Source: a virus
Virus record (IMG/VR): IMGVR_UViG_3300037574_000313
Span: 1 to 38,811 of that record
Length of the DNA: 38,811 bases
Strand: one strand, 5' to 3'
How positions within the stretch are numbered: position 1 is the first letter of the stretch; every line of letters starts with the position of its first letter. The position numbers and the translations under genes were made by a program. Below, piece after piece: positions 6,286-35,376 of the stretch. The notes beneath the pieces are model-generated. The model was not told where the DNA came from and ran no database searches. It saw only the letters and a program-made list of their open reading frames with translations.

Positions 6286-7269
6286 TTACGCAGTCTCAAT
6301 GACTACCATGTTATTGTTTTCGAGAAGCGCTTGGCCCCAGATCGAGTACCACGCCAAAGCGTGCTCACGTCCGAAGTCTTGGACACCGTTGTCACGAAGC
6401 TCAACGGGAAGCGCCACGGCATGGCCGTAGCTGTATTCACCAAACATAAGCGCCTGGTAAATCGTCGTCTGGTTCGAGCCGAAAGAGGCATCGAGCGCAG
6501 CGCTATAGCCTGGGTCAGCAAACTCGCCAGTGTCGGCATCAACAGCACTGTTTCCGCCGTTAGGCATCATCGAAGTGCTAATGAAACGAACATCGTTGTA
6601 ACGGCCAACCTCTCCGAAGAAGATCGGAACGCTGCCTGCATACAAACTCGCATTAACCCAACCAGCGCTCTGACGAAGAGAGCTGATCTGATGCGGATGC
6701 ACGAAGCAGATGTAGAAGTCGTTGCCCCACTTAGGAGCATTCAACGTCTCTAGCTGTTCCGTCGCCTTGTGGATCTCGGAAGTGGTGAACCCATCGCCGC
6801 CAACAAGTTGGACGCGAGAAGCCTTGCCGCCGCCGAAAACGGTATTAGTGGCAGACACCGCAACATCGCGAAGTTCTAGATCAAGAACAACGGCAAGGTC
6901 ACGACCAAGCAGCATAGAAGCGGCTGCGAGGTTGTCATAGAACGAGGTCTGCAACAGACGCTCGGTCATACCAATAGCGTTGCCCTTCTCATCCACCGTA
7001 ATGTTGGCTGAGCTGAGCGACATCGCATTGGTCTGCATACGGACACCCTCAGTGAGTGTGCCGCCTCGCTTGATCGCCCCGAATTTCGGGAGGACGATGG
7101 TATCGCCAGGTTGAACCCCAAGTTCTTCTTTTCGCGTAGCGAATTGATCGAACCGCAGGTTGGGAAGGGCCGTGAAATAAATCTCAGCGGAATAGACATC
7201 ACGGATCGCAGCGAGCAAAGCGCTGAAACCGGGGCCAGAAGCTGAGGCACTAGTTAGAACGGAAGGCAT
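6286..7269 (-). CDS. Major capsid protein (N4-gp56-like, HK97 fold)
   Basis: The main shell subunit, 327 aa. It fits the N4 gp56 family: an N-terminal helix (SALLAAIRDVYSAEIYFTAL), FDQFATRKEELGVQPGDTIV, GTLTEGVRMQTNAMSLSSAN, the central ITVDEKGNAIGMTERLLQTS, and a C-terminal DFGREHALAWYSIWGQALLE segment before the last strand. The start ATG is preceded by GGAGGAA at good spacing. It directly follows the scaffold-like gene, from which it is separated by a 26-bp inverted repeat. No cleaved N-terminal delta domain is evident. Expression should be very high. Confidence 0.92.
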   Translation of the reverse strand: MPSVLTSASASGPGFSALLAAIRDVYSAEIYFTALPNLRFDQFATRKEELGVQPGDTIVLPKFGAIKRGGTLTEGVRMQTNAMSLSSANITVDEKGNAIGMTERLLQTSFYDNLAAASMLLGRDLAVVLDLELRDVAVSATNTVFGGGKASRVQLVGGDGFTTSEIHKATEQLETLNAPKWGNDFYICFVHPHQISSLRQSAGWVNASLYAGSVPIFFGEVGRYNDVRFISTSMMPNGGNSAVDADTGEFADPGYSAALDASFGSNQTTIYQALMFGEYSYGHAVALPVELRDNGVQDFGREHALAWYSIWGQALLENNNMVVIETA

Positions 7270-7331: not shown

Positions 7332-8522
7332 TCACTGCGTTGCCCTTTTGGCAGCTACTGCTGCCTGTGCCGCCGCTCGCGCAGCATTAGAGTCAATTGG
7401 CGTGCCTTGATCCACCTCAAAAGGCTGTGCCGCATAACCCGTCGTTTGCGTAGGTACACGTTGCCCCGTAGGGGTTTCGATATACTGCGCAGACTGCTGT
7501 GCCATCATCCCTGGAACCATAGGAGTGAATCCAGGGTTAGCCGGCGCGGCAGCCACCATTGGCTGCTGCATCGGAAGCGATTGCGTGATAGGGGGACTTG
7601 CCCCAGGATGGGGCAAGGGTTGGGCTCCCGCATATTGTACCTGCGGTGGGGCAGGCGCGGGTAATGTTTGTTGTACCGGGGGCTGTAATTGATTGTCGCC
7701 AAAGGCCCATTTTCTTCCACCTGGGCCTGTAGCTCCGTTCCGTAAAGCAGCTATGATCTGATGTCTAAACATTCCATATTCACCAGTGCGAACACCGGTA
7801 GTGGTCAAATGACGCAACACGTTAGGATCGAGGATCCCGTCCGCCTGTTGCTGTTGAGGTACGCCCGTAGCTTGAATCATACTGGGAGCGCTGACAGGTT
7901 GAGTCTGCGGCTGCTGTTGCTGTTGCACAACGGGCTGGCCGCCGATCTGGCTTACTACGCCTTGCGGCTCAGCAACAGGGGAATGATTCGATTGCTGAGA
8001 TCGAATGTCTTGGGCAACCTGAGAGGCGATGTAGTCATATTCGGCTGATGCCACCTGAATAGAAGCGTCGATCTCCTCTGGCGTGTCTCCAAACACTAGA
8101 GAATCTACAAGATTGTCGCCATTTTCAATGGCTTCGTTAATCGCCTCTTGTCGGTACGTCGCAACCTGGCTGCTATAGAGGTCATCTTGCAGGGAGGCAA
8201 TCTGGCCTTGCAGATCGCGCATAGTAACCCGCCCGCTTCCCTCTTCCTCTTCACCGTCTTCGAGGTCTTCTGTCAGCAGCTCTTCCTGCGACTGGTACGC
8301 CTGCTCTAAGCGCGCAAGTGCGCCCTCTTCCCGCGCACTCATAGCTTCCAAGATGTCTGGCAATGCGGATGTAGGGATAGACGGCTCGTCTACACCCTCT
8401 TCTACAGGCTGTGGAGGCACAGCCGCCACAACAGGCTGCGGTGCAGGGGCAGCAACGGGTTGAGGCGCTGCCGCCACCTGCTCGGGTTGATTAAATGTTC
8501 CTAGGTACTTGCAGTGTTTCAT
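7332..8522 (-). CDS. Putative scaffolding protein
   Basis: A 396-aa protein located immediately upstream of the major capsid gene. Composition is low-complexity and typical of scaffolds: Pro/Ala/Gln-rich arms (residues 13-45 and about 280-390), a poly-Gln stretch near 215, and an acidic helical centre (EEGALARLEQAYQSQEELLT, ending in a run of acidic residues near 94-98). A short ordered segment lies at about 240-270 (LRHLTTTGVRTGEYGMFRHQ). The start of the protein, MKHCKYLGTF, resembles N-termini of the tube protein and a 62-aa protein near terL. Function is inferred from position and composition. No protease domain is visible. Confidence 0.72.
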   Translation of the reverse strand: MKHCKYLGTFNQPEQVAAAPQPVAAPAPQPVVAAVPPQPVEEGVDEPSIPTSALPDILEAMSAREEGALARLEQAYQSQEELLTEDLEDGEEEEGSGRVTMRDLQGQIASLQDDLYSSQVATYRQEAINEAIENGDNLVDSLVFGDTPEEIDASIQVASAEYDYIASQVAQDIRSQQSNHSPVAEPQGVVSQIGGQPVVQQQQQPQTQPVSAPSMIQATGVPQQQQADGILDPNVLRHLTTTGVRTGEYGMFRHQIIAALRNGATGPGGRKWAFGDNQLQPPVQQTLPAPAPPQVQYAGAQPLPHPGASPPITQSLPMQQPMVAAAPANPGFTPMVPGMMAQQSAQYIETPTGQRVPTQTTGYAAQPFEVDQGTPIDSNAARAAAQAAVAAKRATQ

Positions 8523-9307: not shown

Positions 9308-11452
9308 CTAGGACTTGCCCCTAGACCACTGGCGTCGCTCTCGCTTCTCGACGTTAACGCCAAGATACTTACGCAGACGGTCCCCTCTGGACGGCTTAGT
9401 GGGCTTAATGGGCTTCACCGCCTTCTTTTTGCCAGAGGTAGCACTCTTAAATCGATCCTCCCACGTTTTCTCTGGCGCTCGCTTTCCTGACAAAGATTCC
9501 CGCATCTCGGATACGGATTTTATACCGCTCATGCTGGCCTTCTTCTTCTTCTTCTTGGACTTCAATTTCTGACGGTAGCTTGGCAGCCTTCTCCGCGCGC
9601 GTGCCTTGGCGGCCTTCTTCGCCTGACTTAGCTTCTTTTCGCCACTCTCGATGGCAGCTTCGCGCTTAGCGCGACGGCGATCAGTCTTCGCCCGCGAAGC
9701 CTTGCTCGGCGGCTTTTGGCCCAGATACCCTTCATAGTCGAGCGCCTGAATCTGCTTCTGATAGTCGCGCTCCTTGGTGTCTCTTAACCGTTTAACGTGC
9801 ATTTCAAGCCGCTCTGGATCGTGCTTCTTTGCGGCCTTCTTCTTCTTCTTAGTACCCTTAGATTGCACAGCTTCAGTAGAGCCCTTAGATACCTGGCCCT
9901 TTTCCCTTTGCGCCAGACCCTTGAGCTGCTCACGACGAAATGCGCCCGCCGTGGGCTTATTCGCCTTAGACTTTATGGCGGGTTTGGCCGCCTGCTTGGC
10001 TGAGTAGTCCTCTGCCTTCTTCCAGTTCTTTGCCAACTCAGTGTCGCCAGCCGACTCAGCCTTGATCCGCTGGGCTTTGGCGTTCTTGTGGTCGGCCACC
10101 GCGCGCTTCCTATCGCGCTCCTCGCGCGTAGGCATCCCCTTCATCCGTGCCATCGAGCGCTTCGCAGATGCGGCTGACCCCCGTGCCTGCAAAGTTTCCC
10201 CACCCAGGCCGCCGAGCCGAGCTGCGAACTTTCTCCTCACGCCCGGCGGCATCGAGCGCGGGTCGGGCCGCCGACCTCTTTCCGCAATGCCTACGCCGAT
10301 GGCTGCCCCGGCTGGGTTAGGTCGAGACGCCTCGTCTGTGTAAAAGGCGCGATTCTCTACCCACTTGCCAGCAGAACGCCCATAATTTCCTCTTTTATCG
10401 TATATGGCGATCCGGCCTGGGCCTAGGCCATCAGCCTTCTTCAAAAAGCGTTCGCCGCTTTTGTCCCACTTTTCGCTGAGAACAGTGTCCGCGTAGTCGT
10501 GGAGCCCGCGACGGTCGCTCAACCCTGCCCAAAGGGTTTTGGACTTACTGCCATCTTCAGGTTCAAACACAATGCGATTGCCCGCCTTGGCTTGTGCGAC
10601 CATATTGGTGCGGTCTTTTGGATCCAAGACAGAATCCTTAGCTGAAGGGGCCTTCTTCTTACCGCCGAGCCGGCCAATGGCCGCTGCCTGCTTTGCTGAA
10701 GGCCCCTTCTTAGGCTTGGACCTGGCAGCCGCTCGGCGCTCGCGCTCAGGCCGCGCGCGTTCATTAGCTAAGTCTTTCGCTGCCAACTTATCGAAGCGAG
10801 CTTGTTGTTGCTTGTGCTTGCGGGCCTGCTTGGGTGACAGACCTGCGATACCGCCGTCAATAACCTTCTTCTCCGCCGCTATGTTCGCGTCGGTGGTCTT
10901 CAGTGTAAATTTTACACCAGCGGCGGCCTTTTTCTGTATCGAACCGCGAGTTTTCTTTCTGTAGGCATCCCGCGCGATTTGAAACGCACCCTCCCGCTGT
11001 TGAGTTCGCTTATTCGCTGGAGTGCCTCTCTTCATAGAGGGGGGCTGGTCGTACCTTTTACCTTTATGACGCATCCGTTCCGCTTCACGGCCCTCGGCAG
11101 CCCCAGATGTCGTGCCGGTCCTTTTAGCGAACTTCTCTAATCGCTTCTTGGTAGCCTTCTTTGCGCCTGCGGCGGTCTTTTTTTCTACCCACGCCTTAGA
11201 CACAGCCTTTTGGCCGCCGCGTGATTTGCGCACACCCCCGACGCGGGGAGCAGCGAGCTTAGGTCCGGCACTCTTCCTGGCTGGGCGAGCTTTTCTGCCC
11301 TTACGGGTAGAAGGCGTAGGCAGCGGGCCATAAACCTTGCTTCCTCCGCGAGAAATGTAGAATTTGCCCCCTCGGGGGCCACTCTGCATTCCTCCGCGAG
11401 CGCCTCGACGGCTGCTACCTGAGTTGCGTGATGGTCTTTTGTAGAATGGCAT
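9308..11452 (-). CDS. Basic tagged virion-cargo-like protein, third paralogue (unrecognised middle domain)
   Basis: A 714-aa, extremely Lys/Arg/Ala-rich protein. Residues 22-47 carry the shared tag MQSGPRGGKFYISRGGSKVY followed by a G-P-L-P-T-P end. Residues 60-280 are basic and helical. Residues about 280-395 look like a folded domain (NRIVFEPEDGSKSKTLWAGL, ERFLKKADGLGPGRIAIYDK, WVENRAFYTDEASRPNPAGA) that I do not recognise. Residues 523-539 repeat the second shared motif KGSTEAVQSKGTKKKKK, followed by more basic helix to the end. It is the last of three tandem paralogues between portal and scaffold. The composition suggests DNA contact inside the head or ejection with the genome. No MuF fold was seen. 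Confidence 0.72.
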   Translation of the reverse strand: MPFYKRPSRNSGSSRRGARGGMQSGPRGGKFYISRGGSKVYGPLPTPSTRKGRKARPARKSAGPKLAAPRVGGVRKSRGGQKAVSKAWVEKKTAAGAKKATKKRLEKFAKRTGTTSGAAEGREAERMRHKGKRYDQPPSMKRGTPANKRTQQREGAFQIARDAYRKKTRGSIQKKAAAGVKFTLKTTDANIAAEKKVIDGGIAGLSPKQARKHKQQQARFDKLAAKDLANERARPERERRAAARSKPKKGPSAKQAAAIGRLGGKKKAPSAKDSVLDPKDRTNMVAQAKAGNRIVFEPEDGSKSKTLWAGLSDRRGLHDYADTVLSEKWDKSGERFLKKADGLGPGRIAIYDKRGNYGRSAGKWVENRAFYTDEASRPNPAGAAIGVGIAERGRRPDPRSMPPGVRRKFAARLGGLGGETLQARGSAASAKRSMARMKGMPTREERDRKRAVADHKNAKAQRIKAESAGDTELAKNWKKAEDYSAKQAAKPAIKSKANKPTAGAFRREQLKGLAQREKGQVSKGSTEAVQSKGTKKKKKAAKKHDPERLEMHVKRLRDTKERDYQKQIQALDYEGYLGQKPPSKASRAKTDRRRAKREAAIESGEKKLSQAKKAAKARARRRLPSYRQKLKSKKKKKKASMSGIKSVSEMRESLSGKRAPEKTWEDRFKSATSGKKKAVKPIKPTKPSRGDRLRKYLGVNVEKRERRQWSRGKS

Positions 11453-11467
11453 AGTTGATTAATCCTA

Positions 11468-11683
11468 TTACTTCAGTCCGAGCCGTAGCAGGTAGTACGG
11501 TTCCCACAAGGAGCCGCCAACCATGCCAGACAATTCAATATACGCAAGAAGTTGGTTCTTATAAACCATTTCAAATCGTTTTTTGGTGAGCTTGCCACGA
11601 TTCTTCTCCCCTTTGGCGTCGGCCAACAGCTTTCGCAACCTCGTCATAGCCTGTATAGGGGTTATAATCTTTCGTTTACCCAT
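11468..11683 (-). CDS. Hypothetical 71-aa protein
   Basis: A small basic helical protein (MTRLRKLLADAKGEKNRGK, then FEMVYKNQLLAYIELSG) ending with Trp/Tyr-rich SLWEPYYLLRLGLK. It is inserted between two of the basic tagged paralogues with short spacers on either side, so it is co-transcribed with them. It lacks the shared tag. The function is not recognised. A partner of one of the large basic proteins is possible. Confidence 0.5.
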   Translation of the reverse strand: MGKRKIITPIQAMTRLRKLLADAKGEKNRGKLTKKRFEMVYKNQLLAYIELSGMVGGSLWEPYYLLRLGLK

Positions 11684-11687
11684 TATT

Positions 11688-13160
11688 CTAACCGTTCTCT
11701 TTCTTCCACAGGGACGGGGCAGCCTTCTTTAGAGCCTTAGAGTGTCTCCAGCCGATCTTACGGAGGCGAGCGTACCTAGCCATCTGACTGTCAGTGAGGT
11801 CGCCAAGTGTCGCCCCGCTCCGGGGCTTCTTTTTCTTAGGCTTCTTGATGACCCTCTTCTTCTTCTTCTTGGTGCCGGTAGATTGTGTTCCAACAGAAGA
11901 ACCTGATCCCTTAGGAACACCCCTCTTAACAGGTGCCTTTCGTTTGGCCTTGGCCTTAGTGCCTGTAGACTGCCTCGCTTTAGAAGAAACAACAGGCCCC
12001 ATTCCAAGGTACTTACGAACATCCTGACAAAACGCAGCCTCCTCCGGGCGGCGAAGGCGCATGGCGTGAGGGTTAACCACATACGCTGTCATTGTCTCTG
12101 CGAACCACTCATGTTGATCGGTCAGAGCATAGACGCTCACCGCCCCCTCCTTACCCGTCGCGTTATCGAAGTGATGGCCCCAACGTCTGATCAAGTCATG
12201 CCCTTCACCACTAATAGCATTAAACCCTTTCGGAGGAGCTTCAGTCTCGGCCAAAAACTCGCGGGGGGTGGGTTTCTGCCAAATCCTTTTAACCCAGCGT
12301 GTGCGCATAAAACCCCCAGAAGTGCGCTCAACCTGAGGGTCTTTCGCGAGAATGGGGACTTGGGGGTTTGACTTACTGATCGCGTCATGAATTAAGGCAT
12401 ACGACGCATGGTGCATCATCTCATGCACCACGATAGCTTTAGTGTGATCGTATTGCCTCTCGGCCTTAGACCCCTTGCGCACAGGGTACGCCACATTGTG
12501 ATAAACCGGAGGGGTGCCTATGCCACGAATCTCGAAATGCGACGAGCCTCCTGGCGATACCTTGTTGTGGCTTGATGTCAGATCGAACGTCGGCGGCCTA
12601 ACTATGATGTACTGCTGCTTACCCTGCACTGGCCAAGAGTCACGGGGGCTAACGTATCCTCCACTGCCATAGTGGTCAGAAACTTGCCTAAACGACACAT
12701 TCCCGAGGGGATGTCGGGCCAGAACAGGCCCCATGCCAGACGCCTCTACCGCCTTGTCCAGCAGTATCGTATAAGCTTTATGCGCGTCAGCACTGACATC
12801 CCGCTCCCCAACCTCTGCCCTTCTCCTGGCAAACTTGCCCCGAGTGTTTACCTCAACGGGGGCATCTCTCTTCTGGGAGTACGCTGTCTTAGTCGCCTTG
12901 GGCTTGGCTTTAACCGTGGCTGCCTGTTTGGTTGCCCTAGAGGTGAGCTTATCTGCCTTCTTCTTAGCTATCCGCTCCCCAACCTCTGCCTTTCTCCTGG
13001 CGGCTGACTTCCTTCCTGCCGCGCCTCGACGTGCAGGCTTCTGTGGAGTGGGCAGGCTCCCGTAAACCTTGTTGCCGCTGCGCGAAATGTAGAACTTACC
13101 CCCTCGGGGTCCGGTCTGCATCCCTGAGCGGGGGGCTTTACGCGCTGGCCGAGAAGACAT
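11688..13160 (-). CDS. Basic tagged protein with HExxH metalloprotease-like domain, second paralogue
   Basis: A 490-aa protein. Residues 14-39 carry the shared tag (MQTGPRGGKFYISRSGNKVY, then S-L-P-T-P). Two near-copies of RRxAEVGER occur at about 55-63 and 113-120. The central part, about 125-390, is folded and contains KAIVVHEMMHHASYALIHD (241-259) with the zinc-metallopeptidase HExxH at 246-250. A candidate third ligand lies in EWFAETMTAY (Glu355), the spacing expected of a gluzincin-like site. A Lys-rich C-terminus repeats the second shared motif (GSGSSVGTQSTGTKKKKK, 418-435). It probably acts on a peptide substrate: either a virion protein during maturation, or peptidoglycan or a host protein after ejection. 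The substrate is unknown. Confidence 0.72.
   Translation of the reverse strand: MSSRPARKAPRSGMQTGPRGGKFYISRSGNKVYGSLPTPQKPARRGAAGRKSAARRKAEVGERIAKKKADKLTSRATKQAATVKAKPKATKTAYSQKRDAPVEVNTRGKFARRRAEVGERDVSADAHKAYTILLDKAVEASGMGPVLARHPLGNVSFRQVSDHYGSGGYVSPRDSWPVQGKQQYIIVRPPTFDLTSSHNKVSPGGSSHFEIRGIGTPPVYHNVAYPVRKGSKAERQYDHTKAIVVHEMMHHASYALIHDAISKSNPQVPILAKDPQVERTSGGFMRTRWVKRIWQKPTPREFLAETEAPPKGFNAISGEGHDLIRRWGHHFDNATGKEGAVSVYALTDQHEWFAETMTAYVVNPHAMRLRRPEEAAFCQDVRKYLGMGPVVSSKARQSTGTKAKAKRKAPVKRGVPKGSGSSVGTQSTGTKKKKKRVIKKPKKKKPRSGATLGDLTDSQMARYARLRKIGWRHSKALKKAAPSLWKKENG
12801..13001. repeat. Pair of 30-bp direct repeats inside the metalloprotease-like gene
   Basis: Positions 12801-12830 and 12972-13001 are identical except for one base. 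In the gene they encode two copies of the peptide around AEVGER. The high nucleotide identity suggests a recent internal duplication of the N-terminal linker. Confidence 0.75.
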
Positions 13161-13166
13161 AATCGA

Positions 13167-15215
13167 TTACCTGTCCTGGTGACGGATTTTGGCGGCGCGG
13201 TAATTTGCGTAATCTCTCAATGTATGGATAGGACTGGCCTTTGCGGCTTCAACTTGCTTCGCAGTGGGCTCAAGTCGGCCACCCTCCTCAGTCTTGCCCG
13301 AGCCCTTCGCCCACTTGGTCTTGCCCTTCTTAATCTTACCCCCTCCAGCAACAAACTTTTTCCTAGCCTTATCAGCCTTCTCGCTGCCGGCCCACCTCGT
13401 CTTAGGGCCGCCCTTCTTTAAGAATGGGTTCGGATTCCTCGGCTTAGGCAAAGGTCTGCGCTTCTTACGGGGCGGCGGCGGCCTACGCTTCTTTGTACCC
13501 GTCGATTGAATCGCCTCAGTAGAGCCCTTTGACTCTTGGAAGCGCTTCGGTGTCCCTCCGGGCACCACCTTGTCCTGCATGTCGGCGCGGAATACCCCAG
13601 GCATCTTGAACGATTTCTTCAGCATATCGTCCATGTTCATATCGACCTTAATGACGTTCATCTTTCTGGTCGGGCCAATAGTCAGCATAGCCGCGTATCG
13701 ATGGTGCCCATCCAAGATGAAGTTATCTTTACTAACAACAATGGGCTTCTTGCCGGGGTCGTATTTGCCCTTCAGATGCGCGTCTGCCATTCCAAAGGCT
13801 TTACCTGCTTTGATCTCTCGCTGCGTGGCCTTCAGCTCCCCGACGTTCATCTTGCTTTCGCTAACCTTAATGCCCTTAGATTTCAGCCGACCCATAAAGG
13901 CATCGAACATGGAGCCCTTCATGTTCGGGTCAGCGCCAGCCGCGATAGCAGCGTCAACCTTCCAAGCATTCTTGGGGTCTTTACGAAGCTCTGAGAAAGG
14001 CACATCGAGTAGCTGGGGCATCTCAGACCGGGGGACGTTCTTGTTCCCCGCGCATACAGGAGGCGATTTCTTACAGACATCAGCAGACTTGCTGATCCCT
14101 TGCGCCATCTTCTTAGCGATGTAGGCAGCCTGCTTTTTGTTCTTGCCAACTACTTCCTGATTATACTGAGCTAACGGATTAGCTTCTTTTTTGCCGGTCA
14201 TCCCAGGAACAGGCTTTGCGCTATCACCCTCAATGTCATTATTGGCTTCCTTCTTGGCATCAGTGGCAATTCGTAACCGCTGCTTAGGCTCAGGCTTCTT
14301 TTTTGCGGGCTCACCGACGTCAATGCGCTGCTTCTTGGGAGCCTCTTTAGGCTCACCTGTGTCAATGCGAGCCTTGCCGGCTTTCGCCGCCATCCGCTGC
14401 CGCACCGCTTCCTTATTCGAGGGGCTCAACTTATCGAAACGTCCCTTGGCTTCCTGCGCCCTAGCCTTCTTGCCCTTGGCGTGCTGTTCAGATCGCTCGC
14501 GGGCTACCTCTTTCTTTAGCCCAGCCAGCTCACGCTTCTCAGCTCGCCTCTTAGTCACAATCGACCGAACACGCTCAGCCCGGTCTGGAGACATTTTAGA
14601 AAGAACCGTCTCTTGCCCAGACGAGAAATCTTTAGATGCCTTGGTTTTAGGGGTACCAATGATCTTTTTTCTCAGAGCTGAGAGGTCGCTCTTCGTCTTG
14701 TCCATGTGCTGCTTGCGCGCACTTGCCTGGGGCTTCAGCCTCTCAGTTCTCGCCTTTACCTTTTCGTATCGCTTATAGCTTTTTTCTGCACCACCAACGG
14801 CCTTCTTAGCCCTCTCAAGCCTTTTTTGCCGTCCTTTATCCTCACGGCTCATCCCGGCTTTGGCTTTCCACCCCCGAGATCCAGCTTCCGCCTGCTTTCT
14901 TTTTTGACCAGCTTTCTTTTTCCATCCGCCACCCGCCAAGGCGGCTCTGCGCAGGGGCGGCCTGACCTTCTTTAAGGTGGGGCGTTTAGGCTGTTTGGCC
15001 GGCAACGAGGGTTTCTTTAGACTGGGGCGGGCTCGACCCGCAGAGGCACGAGCGCCCTTTCGCCCCCTAGGGGTAGGTAGATCGCGGTAAACCTTGCTGC
15101 CGCCGCCAGACACATAGTATTTGCCGCCCCTAGGTCCGCTCTGCATCCCTCCTCTGCTTCGACCAGAGGAAGAGCTTTTGCGGCCTGAGATTGATCTACT
15201 GCGTCTACGGGGCAT
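13167..15215 (-). CDS. Basic tagged protein with ParB/Srx-like domain, first paralogue
   Basis: A 682-aa protein. Residues 24-49 carry the shared tag (MQSGPRGGKYYVSGGGSKVY, then R-D-L-P-T-P). Residues 50-350 are basic and coiled-coil-like. Residues about 378-535 match the ParB/sulfiredoxin-like domain often seen in phage and polymorphic-toxin proteins: NVPRSEMPQL, LKATQREIKAGKAFGMADAH, then VVSKDNFILDGHHRYAAML with DGHHR at 502-506. Residues 563-576 give the second shared motif KGSTEAIQSTGTKK, then a Pro/Arg/Lys-rich tail. It lies directly after the portal gene. The ParB-like fold can bind nucleotides or cut DNA, so candidate roles are DNA processing in the capsid or an ejected effector. Confidence 0.75.
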   Translation of the reverse strand: MPRRRSRSISGRKSSSSGRSRGGMQSGPRGGKYYVSGGGSKVYRDLPTPRGRKGARASAGRARPSLKKPSLPAKQPKRPTLKKVRPPLRRAALAGGGWKKKAGQKRKQAEAGSRGWKAKAGMSREDKGRQKRLERAKKAVGGAEKSYKRYEKVKARTERLKPQASARKQHMDKTKSDLSALRKKIIGTPKTKASKDFSSGQETVLSKMSPDRAERVRSIVTKRRAEKRELAGLKKEVARERSEQHAKGKKARAQEAKGRFDKLSPSNKEAVRQRMAAKAGKARIDTGEPKEAPKKQRIDVGEPAKKKPEPKQRLRIATDAKKEANNDIEGDSAKPVPGMTGKKEANPLAQYNQEVVGKNKKQAAYIAKKMAQGISKSADVCKKSPPVCAGNKNVPRSEMPQLLDVPFSELRKDPKNAWKVDAAIAAGADPNMKGSMFDAFMGRLKSKGIKVSESKMNVGELKATQREIKAGKAFGMADAHLKGKYDPGKKPIVVSKDNFILDGHHRYAAMLTIGPTRKMNVIKVDMNMDDMLKKSFKMPGVFRADMQDKVVPGGTPKRFQESKGSTEAIQSTGTKKRRPPPPRKKRRPLPKPRNPNPFLKKGGPKTRWAGSEKADKARKKFVAGGGKIKKGKTKWAKGSGKTEEGGRLEPTAKQVEAAKASPIHTLRDYANYRAAKIRHQDR

Positions 15216-15242: not shown

Positions 15243-17456
15243 CTAGGCCAAGTCGTCCCCTGGTGCGAAACGGTTACCACGCCCCGGCCCCGGCCCCGGA
15301 GGGAGTGGGGCTCCGTGATTATCACCAGGCTGATTAGGCTGCATCCCTGGCGTCTGCGCAACCTGCTGTGTCGGATCCTGCTTGCCCTGGATAGCCAACA
15401 AGAATGGAATGTCGTCGGCTATCGCCTTATCGACCTCAATCGCATTCTCTCCAATCTCAAGCCGCTTCATGATGTGGTGACGGTCTAGCCATCCATTCTG
15501 CTGCCACTGTGCATACAGATTTGAGTCACGTTCCCTATCACGCGGCAAAGCACTCTTAATCTCAACGGTGGTTTCGTATGGATTGAGGTAAACCGGACTA
15601 ATACATCCCGTAGGAACAAGAGTCTTAACCCCTAGGTTATCCCTAACAAATTGTTGAGTCTGCGCATCCCACGTCATGATGGTGACCGGGATGGTTACGG
15701 GCTCTTCTGGGATGTCGATATCATGCGGCGATAGTTGTTCTGGCTCCACCTCAACAGGAGGCTCCAGTTCTGGCGGCATCGGCTCAGGCGGTTGCGGGAT
15801 ATCAGCAACCTGACCTTGAATCTCAGGAGAAGGTGCGTTGCCATCTTCATCAACCTTCTTAGGCGGCTCCTCTTCCTTAAGAGTGCGCTCGTTCTGTTCG
15901 TAACTGCCCTGAGCAGCCGTTTGCCAATCCTCAGCGGCAATTGCCCGTTCCTGGTCATCTTCAGCCTTTTGCTGGAGGTCCACCTCAGGCTCTGGATCCC
16001 AGAAGCTAGTAGACGCTTTCTTATGCTCACGAATAGCCTGAGAAAATGGCACCTTACGAGTTTCAGATCCGAAAGAGTACTTCCTCTTAATGCTGACCTG
16101 AACATCTTCCGGCGACAGAAATTGTAATGTTAGCGGGTCTATCGCAAAACACTGCCGCTTTGATACGCCGTCCTCCTGCACCTCAACAATCCTGCCGCCG
16201 CAGTGCTTGCAAAGATCAACAGGAAACGAAATGCCGGTGGCTAACTGGTAATAACGCAGGATCAGATAATTGACCTGTTCGAGCCCCTTCTTAAATGAAG
16301 GGAGCTTCCTCTCGGTCGCTTCCACAAGAGGCTGGAACTGCACCTGCAAAGCCGCTGCGCTCGTATTCGAGATAGGCTGAGTGCGCCCCAGTGACCCCTC
16401 GGGCAGTCCCGCCAGATCGAACATGATCTGTTGCACTGTCTTCAAGTATTCGTGGCTCACCGCGAGGTTCCCCCCAAGCTCTAGGTTGAACACCTTTGCG
16501 TCGGAAGGTAAGCCGCTCCATAGCGATTTCGGTCCTTTGTCTAACTGCTTGGCTCGCGCGCCAAGAATAACCGTCACGGGAGCGGCATGGTAATTAACAA
16601 TGTCTGAGATGTCAGTTAACTTCTCATTGTATTCTCGCTGTATATCGATAATGCCGTCCAGGTCAGACAAGCCGTAATACTCACGAGGGAAGCTCTGATT
16701 GGAGATATGAACAATAGGGATCTCACCCAGGTCGTTCGGCCTTGTGGCCCGCTCTTCCCCGTCCCACCCTTCGACGATCCTGTCGGGGTATATGTCTTCG
16801 ATGTAACGCCTGTTCTGCGTAACACCTAAGCCTCCCATAGTGATCGGCGTGCTCTCAACGGTCTGAGTGCTGCCATCGGTTGACATCCCCTGTCCCTGCA
16901 CCTCAGTGACAATGCGAATGCGCTCGATCTGCTCAACATTAAGAGGGTTCCACACAGGGAACACCTGCTCCGAGCCCAAGAGCCGAAGCCTTACACGACC
17001 GCGAGTAAACGGATTAATAGATTTTTTAATCGCAGAGGGCTCTTCGTACGTCACCATAACGAAGGTGTCCCCTGTGACGCCCCCCATAGTCGCCATATCA
17101 AGGACGAACCCTTCCTTGTTGTTGTAGTCCCAAACCTCATCAATGACGGGTTTAGTGATATTGGTGAGAGGCTCAGGGACGAGGAAGTTAATGCCTCTGC
17201 CAACCAGAAAAGACGCCTTTTTATCTACAATACGCCGGCAGTAGTTGGCGGTTACCAGAGGCTCCCCATCTTCCCTCTGAAAGTTCCACTGAAGGCCAGT
17301 GTAAAATCGCCAATGCTCTGAGTATCTGCGCAGACGGAGTGAGTCTTGCGGATTGGTAGCGACGGTGGACAGGGTGTTTCGACCCTCACGCCGCTCATAG
17401 GGTACGGCTGTCCCGCCTGACCCTTGTAAGTGTAGAGATTGAAATTGAATGGGCAT
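15243..17456 (-). CDS. Portal protein (SPP1 gp6-like)
   Basis: The dodecameric DNA-entry channel of the head, 737 aa. Recognisable portal features are TANYCRRIVDKKASFLVGRG near residue 70, VHISNQSFPREYYGLSDLDG, IDIQREYNEKLTDISDIVNY and SNTSAAALQVQFQPL. Residues about 420-435 add a CKHCGG segment with a further Cys 16 residues on, a possible zinc site. The C-terminus is acidic, then Pro/Gly/Gln-rich (about 520-737), longer than in most portals. The gene follows terL at a distance of six small genes and precedes the three basic paralogues. AAGGA lies nine bases before the ATG. Confidence 0.92.
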   Translation of the reverse strand: MPIQFQSLHLQGSGGTAVPYERREGRNTLSTVATNPQDSLRLRRYSEHWRFYTGLQWNFQREDGEPLVTANYCRRIVDKKASFLVGRGINFLVPEPLTNITKPVIDEVWDYNNKEGFVLDMATMGGVTGDTFVMVTYEEPSAIKKSINPFTRGRVRLRLLGSEQVFPVWNPLNVEQIERIRIVTEVQGQGMSTDGSTQTVESTPITMGGLGVTQNRRYIEDIYPDRIVEGWDGEERATRPNDLGEIPIVHISNQSFPREYYGLSDLDGIIDIQREYNEKLTDISDIVNYHAAPVTVILGARAKQLDKGPKSLWSGLPSDAKVFNLELGGNLAVSHEYLKTVQQIMFDLAGLPEGSLGRTQPISNTSAAALQVQFQPLVEATERKLPSFKKGLEQVNYLILRYYQLATGISFPVDLCKHCGGRIVEVQEDGVSKRQCFAIDPLTLQFLSPEDVQVSIKRKYSFGSETRKVPFSQAIREHKKASTSFWDPEPEVDLQQKAEDDQERAIAAEDWQTAAQGSYEQNERTLKEEEPPKKVDEDGNAPSPEIQGQVADIPQPPEPMPPELEPPVEVEPEQLSPHDIDIPEEPVTIPVTIMTWDAQTQQFVRDNLGVKTLVPTGCISPVYLNPYETTVEIKSALPRDRERDSNLYAQWQQNGWLDRHHIMKRLEIGENAIEVDKAIADDIPFLLAIQGKQDPTQQVAQTPGMQPNQPGDNHGAPLPPGPGPGRGNRFAPGDDLA

Positions 17457-22059: not shown

Positions 22060-22740
22060 CTACCAGAACCTGCGAGCGCCTATCTTTCGAGATTCCCCGA
22101 AAGAATGCTCCCTGTACCTACAAGACACGCAAACACCACACGGACCTTCTTCCTCGCTGAAGCAGGTCCATGAAGCGTCCATCGGCGCTTCTATAGACCT
22201 GCCGTAGGCTATTATCTCAGCCTTATTCATGTGGCAAAACGGGGCGTAAAACGAAACGGGATCCCCTTCAAACCCTCTTTTTGAGCCGAGACACAGTGCG
22301 ACCTCTAGCCCTTTCAGGAACATGGGGCTTGCGTCGGGGTTAACTGTATAAAGTTGGCCTTCATTAGTGAAACCAACCCATATCTCATCAAAGTTCAAGA
22401 CCTCTGCGTAGCCCGTAGCCACAACAAGGAATAAGGAGTTTCGCAAAGGCACGTAACTTGACGCGACAGTTGAGGACGCTTTGGTGGGGTCAGAGTCGGC
22501 GGGCAGCGCCACAGAAGAGTCAGTTAAGTCATTACTTCCGAAGTCGAGGCCGGAAAGGTCGATCTCCTTGAACTTTAAGGAGTAATGGGAGCACACCTGC
22601 TCTACAGCCCGCCTCTCCCCCCGGTAGTTTCGTTGCCCATAGTTTATGAAAAGAGGCAGTACCTCATGCCCCTGCTTCAGTGCGTCAGCGATAGCGACTG
22701 TGCTGTCAAGGCCGCCAGAAAACAGTACGATTATCTTCAT
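22060..22740 (-). CDS. queC: 7-cyano-7-deazaguanine (preQ0) synthase
   Basis: Converts 7-carboxy-7-deazaguanine to preQ0 with ATP and ammonia, in the cytoplasm. The 226-aa length is normal for QueC. It has the PP-loop SGGLDS (8-13), the conserved YVPLRN (96-101), GFTNEGQLY in place of the usual N-type pyrophosphatase-loop neighbour, and the zinc ligands Cys193, Cys201, Cys204 and Cys207 (CGVCVSC). All key residues are present. The start overlaps the stop of the previous gene. Phage queC genes normally serve DNA modification through dpdA, and a dpdA is found at the right end of this window. No queD, queE or folE lies in the window, so they are elsewhere in the phage or supplied by the host. 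Confidence 0.93.
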   Translation of the reverse strand: MKIIVLFSGGLDSTVAIADALKQGHEVLPLFINYGQRNYRGERRAVEQVCSHYSLKFKEIDLSGLDFGSNDLTDSSVALPADSDPTKASSTVASSYVPLRNSLFLVVATGYAEVLNFDEIWVGFTNEGQLYTVNPDASPMFLKGLEVALCLGSKRGFEGDPVSFYAPFCHMNKAEIIAYGRSIEAPMDASWTCFSEEEGPCGVCVSCRYREHSFGESRKIGARRFW

Positions 22741-34128: not shown

Positions 34129-35376
34129 CTATGTAGGCTTGAGCACGTCCAGGCTCACCCGCTCCTCCGTCAGCGTGACGGAAATCTCACCAGCCTCCTC
34201 GGGGGAGGGGGGCACCGGGGACGGGAGAGGGGACCGTGGTTCCGTCATACGGTCTGGCATACGGATCGGCGTATGGTCTGCCCTATGGTCTGGCATGGGT
34301 TCCGGGGTAGTGTCTATGGTAGTCACATTGCTCTCAACAACTAACATCTCCTCATCCCTATCTTCGCGCGCCGGCCTCGGTGCCAACCCAGCCATCAGCT
34401 TGCTAAGCATCCCGCCGCCTTCGGCTCCAGTCTCTTGGCTAACAATAGAGATACTCCTCTTCACACCCATCTCCATAGAGCCCTTGAGCCTAGCCACACG
34501 CTCAGCCGCCCCCGCAGCCACCTCAATCTGCCTCGACACGTTGGGGTCTATCTGCCCGCCAGTCACACGTGCCTCTAGGAACACCGCCCTCCTCGCGCGG
34601 ACAGCCTGCATGTCTGCGAAGCTCTCAAGGATGGGAAGCAGATTAGTCGAGTCACGGGTACTGAGCCCTCCAAAGAATTCGTCATAGGCGCACGTTGCAT
34701 TAGTCTCAAACTCGGGGCAGTTCTCTGCGGCTGGGCAGTGGTCACACACGACACCGGGCATCCCCATGATGCCTGCCATGTCTTCCTGCTGAGCCAGGCT
34801 ATACTCCGTCCGCTTCGATCTCCTCTGCGCCTTCACGGCTAGGTCGCTGCGCTCTGCGCCATCCACAACGAGAGAAGTCTCATTATTCTCACCGCCATTA
34901 GTCGGAGCCTCCTCGTCAGCTTCGGGCTTTGGCCCCTCTGCGTCCTCAATATCACTCCGCAGAATCGGTAGCCTTTTCTGCATCGAAGTCAGTAGTTCCT
35001 CCCGCTCTCCGCGCGTGCGCGTTGACCTTAGAACCTCGGGCTTTCTTTCCAACATCTCGTCCAAGTAATCGTCAGAGACTACGCCCGCCGATACGGGAGG
35101 AGCGGCTGCGGCAGCCTCGCCCTTCTTCTGTAGGGCCTGTAACCTCTCGAAAGGGTTAGACGACGGCAACGCCTTGCCACCTTTCTTGGCCTTATCTGCA
35201 AGATGCTTTGGGTGCCCACCGGGAGACGGCAGGTCGTCGTCCTTACTCGGGAGGGAGGGCTTCTTCAGGTTAATGGTCCTTGCGGCACCTCCTGGGGAAC
35301 GCCCCCCATCGCCATACTTTGACGGCTTCCGTTCACGTGTTCCTTCGCCTGGCTTCTTTAATTTGAACTTTGACAT
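34129..35376 (-). CDS. Hypothetical protein with central Cys cluster
   Basis: A 415-aa protein. The N-terminus is basic and Pro/Gly-rich (MSKFKLKKPGEGTRERKPSK). Residues about 100-200 are acidic and helical. A Cys cluster follows (VVCDHCPAAENCPEFETNAT, then CAYDEFFGGLSTRDSTN), and next a long helix (ESFADMQAVRARRAVFLEAR) and VSRQIEVAAGAAERVARLKG. The Cys cluster plus helices recall phage proteins I have seen annotated only as hypothetical or small-terminase-like. The C-terminus has a low-complexity MPDxR repeat. It may bind DNA. The assignment is open. Confidence 0.6.
   Translation of the reverse strand: MSKFKLKKPGEGTRERKPSKYGDGGRSPGGAARTINLKKPSLPSKDDDLPSPGGHPKHLADKAKKGGKALPSSNPFERLQALQKKGEAAAAAPPVSAGVVSDDYLDEMLERKPEVLRSTRTRGEREELLTSMQKRLPILRSDIEDAEGPKPEADEEAPTNGGENNETSLVVDGAERSDLAVKAQRRSKRTEYSLAQQEDMAGIMGMPGVVCDHCPAAENCPEFETNATCAYDEFFGGLSTRDSTNLLPILESFADMQAVRARRAVFLEARVTGGQIDPNVSRQIEVAAGAAERVARLKGSMEMGVKRSISIVSQETGAEGGGMLSKLMAGLAPRPAREDRDEEMLVVESNVTTIDTTPEPMPDHRADHTPIRMPDRMTEPRSPLPSPVPPSPEEAGEISVTLTEERVSLDVLKPT

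Follow-up and report, generated by a model that had tools for sequence, protein, structure and literature searches.

Directly behind its portal gene, the phage described here encodes three adjacent basic proteins that begin with the same short tag and differ in what follows it. What kind of proteins are these, and what does the tag do at this locus? The window is the whole stretch of DNA analyzed, an IMG/VR virus record of 38,811 bases. It belongs to a contractile-tailed phage, and tail sheath, tail tube, terminase, and QueC-like genes were recognized in it.

Three basic proteins between the portal and the scaffold

The genes, here called gpA, gpB, and gpC, all lie on the minus strand between the portal gene and the probable scaffold gene:

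15243..17456, minus strand: portal protein, SPP1 gp6-like (profile match, 2.2e-19), directly upstream of gpA
13167..15215, minus strand: gpA, 682 aa; basic leader, tag, basic arm, ParB/Srx-like cargo, second motif, basic tail
11688..13160, minus strand: gpB, 490 aa; basic leader, tag, basic arm, HExxH metalloprotease-like cargo, second motif, basic tail
9308..11452, minus strand: gpC, 714 aa; basic leader, tag, basic arm, middle part without family match (ca. residues 275-430), second motif, basic tail
7332..8522, minus strand: probable scaffold (position only)
6286..7269, minus strand: major capsid protein (profile match)

The open reading frames and coordinates given in an earlier sequence-only reading were exact on re-check. 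Its description of the proteins as Lys/Arg-rich and located between portal and scaffold agrees with their pI (10.7-11.2), their net charge (+115, +63, and +131 for gpA, gpB, and gpC, respectively), and the portal and capsid profiles; the scaffold is assigned by position only, as a family search with this candidate yielded no match. The end of the portal gene and the start of gpA are separated by 27 bp, which places gpA immediately downstream of the portal, the site known for MuF toxins. Elsewhere in the window, QueC-like and queuine tRNA-ribosyltransferase-like genes (22060-22740 and 34129-35376) suggest 7-deazaguanine DNA modification; QueC-like genes were also seen by eye in G001, another contig with tagged proteins.

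A conserved tag and a second shared motif

The tag comprises 26 residues with the consensus MQ[ST]GPRGGK[FY]Y[IV]S..G.KVY..LPTP, behind a basic leader of 13-23 residues:

15069..15146, minus strand: tag of gpA, MQSGPRGGKYYVSGGGSKVYRDLPTP (DNA pattern, identity against shuffles)
13044..13121, minus strand: tag of gpB, MQTGPRGGKFYISRSGNKVYGSLPTP (PBCV_basic_adap, 15.0 bits, below the cut-off of 20.4)
11312..11389, minus strand: tag of gpC, MQSGPRGGKFYISRGGSKVYGPLPTP (DNA pattern, identity against shuffles)

A degenerate DNA pattern of the GPRGGK core had three matches in the window, exactly at the three tags, and none in 100 shuffles. The best pairwise identities over 26 residues were 18, 21, and 22, compared with at most 12 in 150 composition-preserving protein shuffles, so the common N-terminal module reported earlier was recovered at exactly the same coordinates. 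For each pair of window tags, 10-11 codon differences are synonymous and 4-8 non-synonymous. It is therefore the peptide that is conserved, and a recent copying of the DNA does not account for the tags. The tag is weakly predicted to form a hairpin.

The sequence-only reading held that the proteins diverge completely past the tag. This had to be corrected, as a second motif, (S)KGSTEAxQSxGTKKKK or a variant of it, had been overlooked after the cargo of all three proteins:

13473..13532, minus strand: second motif of gpA, SKGSTEAIQSTGTKKRRPPP, adjoining the cargo cassette to the base
11850..11909, minus strand: second motif of gpB, GSGSSVGTQSTGTKKKKKRV
9830..9889, minus strand: second motif of gpC, SKGSTEAVQSKGTKKKKKAA

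With the tag masked, the best identity over 20 residues was 14 for gpA-gpC, 12 for gpB-gpC, and 10 for gpA-gpB, where shuffles reached at most 11, 10, and 11, respectively. The residual similarity is thus above chance for gpA-gpC and gpB-gpC; gpA-gpB taken alone is not.

Cargo domains and the transfer of one cassette

Residues 430-549 of gpA match phrog_2859 (4.6e-21), and overlapping stretches more weakly match several ParB-like families (~1e-3 to 1e-4), which confirms the ParB/Srx-like domain proposed for this protein; Pfam yielded only sub-threshold matches to it. Relatives of this cargo are present in many named phages, and the ParB-like domain also occurs within giant proteins of phages phiC725A and 8P, whose annotation is internal virion polymerase or structural protein.

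In gpB, two sites are of interest:

12411..12425, minus strand: HEMMH (HExxH) of gpB (homologue alignment)
12096..12110, minus strand: EWFAE of gpB, probably the region of the third zinc ligand (conserved also in L012 and L063)

The metalloprotease profile matches of gpB are weak. Still, the HExxH and the downstream E.FAE...AY are invariant in three homologues, gpB, L063, and L012, the last two of which are also tagged. The invariant gpB residues are H246, E247, H250, E351, and F353-A354-E355, that is, the zincin combination of HExxH and a downstream ligand, and the metalloprotease-like assignment of the sequence-only reading is retained on these grounds. The gpB model from the three-sequence alignment had a pLDDT of 44, and Foldseek with this low-confidence model returned no match at E <= 0.001; therefore, we claim no fold. 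For gpC, no match was found in Pfam, PHROGs, or NCBIfam, its middle part had no relatives in the viral contigs searched, and the AlphaFold2 model built without an alignment had a pLDDT of 42. A resemblance of this middle part to ADP-ribosyl cyclase, seen by eye, was dropped for lack of evidence.

The cargo of gpA has a close counterpart at the DNA level:

13533..14231, minus strand: gpA cargo cassette, ParB/Srx-like (80.5% DNA identity over 702 bp to L003)

When the whole window was compared by blastn with the whole 14.8-kb L003 contig, this 702-bp cassette was the only DNA in common. The match stops right at the border of the second motif of gpA, which begins at 13532 in the gene direction. 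At the protein level, the gpA cargo is 80% identical to a part of a 944-aa L003 protein with another leader (LRKPGPHGGYQYWYPGEG) and an acidic context, and the L003 portal belongs to another family than the window portal. The isolated match, its stop at the second motif, and the different leader and surroundings in L003 mean that the whole cargo was transferred between chassis as one block. In keeping with cassette exchange, the similarity between gpB and L063 stops just before the first QSTGTK copy of gpB.

The tag in other contigs and its proximity to the portal

Further tag proteins were collected by pattern scans of viral contigs and reading of their open reading frames; L063 came from the portal survey described below. 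N-terminal tags were found in L012 and in a 328-aa ADP-ribosyltransferase-like protein (both in G001), in L044, L045 (two genes), L047, L053, and L108. The sequence-only reading had proposed a search for the tag on other domains at the same locus. Such domains do occur: metalloprotease-like ones in L063, where the tag is degenerate, and in L012 of G001, whose portal is a relative of the window portal; an ART domain (PF01129, 5.7e-6) in the 328-aa protein of G001; and small basic proteins inside the split portal locus of L045. Phages unrelated to the window phage add RelA/SpoT and SAM lyase cargo: L108 combines the tag with RelA_SpoT (8e-16), and in L027 the module precedes RelA_SpoT (1.8e-13) and S-AdoMet_lyase (4.3e-10). 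In L003, a single long protein contains both an InPase domain and a related unit (GGPYIGPRGGKWADA.HK.PW), the latter three times.

Each of the 13 tag proteins measured has a pI > 9. Among eight proteins, ten of the 26 tag columns are invariant, in part because the search pattern imposes them. In relatives, the tag may also be located in the middle of the protein or at its C-terminus. The tag pattern had 11 matches in 12 contigs, some of them chosen for having the tag, and the reversed control had one. Against named phages, tblastn returned no match for gpB, the ART protein of G001, the tag protein of L053, or the tag itself, which the low-complexity filter may hide; a literature search with the tag letters found nothing relevant.

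In five of six contigs, the nearest tag is 29-1342 bp from the end of the portal gene (rough Fisher p ~3e-7, or 4e-6 without the window); this test assumes that the distance is uniform along the contig, and the sample includes several fragments and some contigs identified through their portal, which makes the value a guide only. The tag genes of L044, L045, and L063 share 1-11 nt with the 3' end of the portal gene. In L045 and L063, they lie between two halves of the portal, the C-terminal part of which is encoded separately behind them, whereas the portal is a single gene in the window. In G001, the tag genes lie 8 kb away from the portal or at the contig end, and the tag gene of L108 has no recognizable head genes nearby. 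In a survey of 48 portal loci, tags were present at four loci of close relatives (L044, L063, L067, and L068); distant portal relatives had no tag within the DNA examined; hence, the portal family as a whole is not characterized by the tag. Moreover, L061, a close portal relative, has the portal, two small genes, a scaffold-like gene, and the capsid protein, with no tag genes. This empty site means that the tag genes are accessory.

Several side observations were made at these loci. The portal is split at a similar place in L045 (4321-7583), L063 (10001-13280), and L064 (797-3258), with tag genes in the gap except in L064. The portal gene of L072 (10133-13144) appears to hold an intein (the insertion begins with CVDEETEILTNKGWKKYTF). 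In L071 (4763-5734), a Lys-rich histone-like protein of 323 aa with another short N-terminal unit (GWVTINGARVPITGG) occupies the tag-gene slot downstream of the portal. The tag and RelA_SpoT gene of L108 (10831-12610) adjoins an opposite-strand gene resembling HD-type alarmone hydrolases.

Relation to the PBCV basic adaptor

As judged from sequence comparison, the tag is a distant relative of the Pfam family PBCV_basic_adap (PF08789), below the family cut-off in the window, where the best tag, that of gpB, scores 15.0 bits and the curated cut-off is 20.4. C-terminal forms from viral contigs pass it at 31-35 bits, as does L051 (25.2 bits), a phage ParB-like protein with a C-terminal module, encoded beside a scaffold-like gene. 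Profile-profile comparison of window-type tags with C-terminal-type modules gave a probability of 98.7%, both sets having been gathered through the GPRGG motif. In chlorovirus PBCV-1, the basic adaptor domain is joined to a protein kinase in A278L and A282L, both of which are abundant in the virion and associated with DNA (PMC3281028).

The C-terminal form of the mini-module is also common in genome contigs on bacterial proteins with apparent signal peptides, several of them nuclease-like by eye. In L023, L031, L038, and L056, the module is present once or twice at the C-terminus of secreted-looking, nuclease-resembling proteins. Inspection by eye gave HNH-like motifs in L013, L018, and the secreted L023, L031, and L038, and a nuclease-like sequence in L056; Pfam did not confirm the motifs of L013 and L018. 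Proteins of L004, L007, L013, L015, L018, and L046 start with a constant stretch of ~90 residues that ends in VGPRGGKYY.G...TGEPA, their C-terminal parts are quite different, and their genes are near baseplate-like genes. Since the module occurs on secreted bacterial proteins, it is not specific for capsids, and a "capsid signal" is too narrow a description. DNA binding would fit all of these settings.

Comparison with known systems

MuF polymorphic toxins of temperate phages are encoded immediately downstream of the portal and consist of a constant N-terminal part and exchangeable toxin domains, including nucleases, metallopeptidases, ART, and RelA (PMC5576092). The window proteins share this slot and catalogue of domains, but no MuF domain (PF04233/PF06152 or related) was found in gpA-gpC with Pfam, PHROGs, and NCBIfam; the constant part is a mini-module of 26 residues, and there are three separate genes side by side. 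Phage polyvalent proteins, such as DdrB of P1, are similar in their catalogue (ParB/Srx, metallopeptidase, ART, RelA/SpoT, InPase), their late or head context, and their proposed packaging (PMC5512222). The window likewise has ParB/Srx-like and metalloprotease-like cargo in a late-gene context, between the portal and the capsid protein. However, a polyvalent protein is one multidomain protein with at least two effector-type domains per polypeptide, whereas here a recognizable cargo domain is present once in gpA, once in gpB, and not in gpC, next to a shared tag, and the portions of that account consulted contain no tag of the window type.

The PBCV-1 kinases resemble the window proteins in that a small basic module is fused to an enzyme, though the window tags are below the family cut-off and both the viruses and the cargo are different. 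T4 internal proteins with a capsid-targeting sequence are similar in concept, in that a common N-terminal element brings different proteins into the head. Unlike there, the tag here may also be in the middle or at the C-terminus of a protein, and no prohead protease was found among the window proteins scanned, a subset of the open reading frames. Thus, of the two comparisons made in the sequence-only reading, the one with polymorphic toxins is close, through MuF, and T4 internal proteins are a less close parallel than MuF toxins, polyvalent proteins, or the PBCV adaptor. Taken together, gpA-gpC probably work like MuF toxins or polyvalent proteins, with the same slot and catalogue, and show the defining domain arrangement of neither.

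Possible roles of the tagged proteins

Our main reading, with a probability of about 0.6, is that gpA, gpB, and gpC are accessory effectors of the MuF or polyvalent type, held in the head by a mini-module predicted to bind DNA or the portal. The location between portal and capsid protein, the proximity of tags to the portal, the range of cargo, the cassette swap, the empty site, the basic character of the tag proteins, and the giant proteins of phiC725A and 8P count for it, as do the slot and domain catalogue of MuF toxins and polyvalent proteins and the virion kinases of PBCV-1. The secreted bacterial forms of the module, the positions of the G001 and L108 tag genes, the scores of the window tags below the family cut-off, and the poor models of gpB and gpC weigh against it. 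In a phage known here from its DNA record, the supporting points suggest that the tag may help to load enzymes into the virus particle. The proteins would be made together with the late head proteins and would enter and stay in the prohead through binding of the tag and the basic arms to the portal, the scaffold, or packaged DNA. They would then be ejected with the genome, and in the new host the nuclease-like activity of gpA and the protease-like activity of gpB could act on the host or its defences. From the earlier proposal of capsid targeting we thus keep a constant tag with interchangeable effector-like domains at head loci, one cassette of which has moved; a capsid-specific signal is given up in view of the secreted bacterial forms and L108.

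Retention could also depend on a T4-like targeting peptide that binds the scaffold and is removed by a prohead protease. The N-terminal position and the head locus would fit such a peptide, but we regard it as very unlikely, given that the tag follows a leader of 13-23 residues, is a weakly predicted hairpin, and changes position among relatives, and that the proteins scanned include no prohead protease. Retention by DNA or portal binding appears more likely than a cleaved signal of this kind, because relatives of the module occur on DNA-associated virion kinases of PBCV-1 and on secreted nuclease-like bacterial proteins. The same relatives, together with the net charges of +63 to +131 and the histone-like L071 protein with its other mini-tag in the same slot, would also be expected if the tag were a mere nucleic-acid-binding mini-domain and the proteins acted, undelivered, in the producing cell, in genome condensation, packaging assistance, or late host takeover. 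We consider this unlikely, as enzyme-like cargo from the polyvalent and MuF catalogue and cassette exchange are unexpected of condensation proteins, and L061 lacks tag genes. Finally, the tag and basic arms could be a spreading low-complexity hairpin with no trafficking role, at a spot near the portal that tolerates insertions of accessory genes. The portal locus is indeed variable in this lineage, with the portal split with (L063) or without (L064) tag genes, but the invariant tag columns, even if partly due to the pattern, and the mostly synonymous codon differences make this explanation the most doubtful.

Beyond the window, the accessory-effector reading may be extended, tentatively and with less than even odds, to GPRGG..Y....G.K.Y as a portable head-loading tag of unrelated tailed phages, with a related form in chloroviruses, by which exchangeable enzymes ride on packaged DNA in a cassette-based arrangement at the portal locus. 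The selection of proteins for the phage head is understood in few systems. Head entry becomes testable here, because different enzymes carry one short conserved tag, a cargo has been swapped in nature, and a relative has an empty site; the tag also provides a handle to find unrecognized injected effectors by the tag instead of the cargo.
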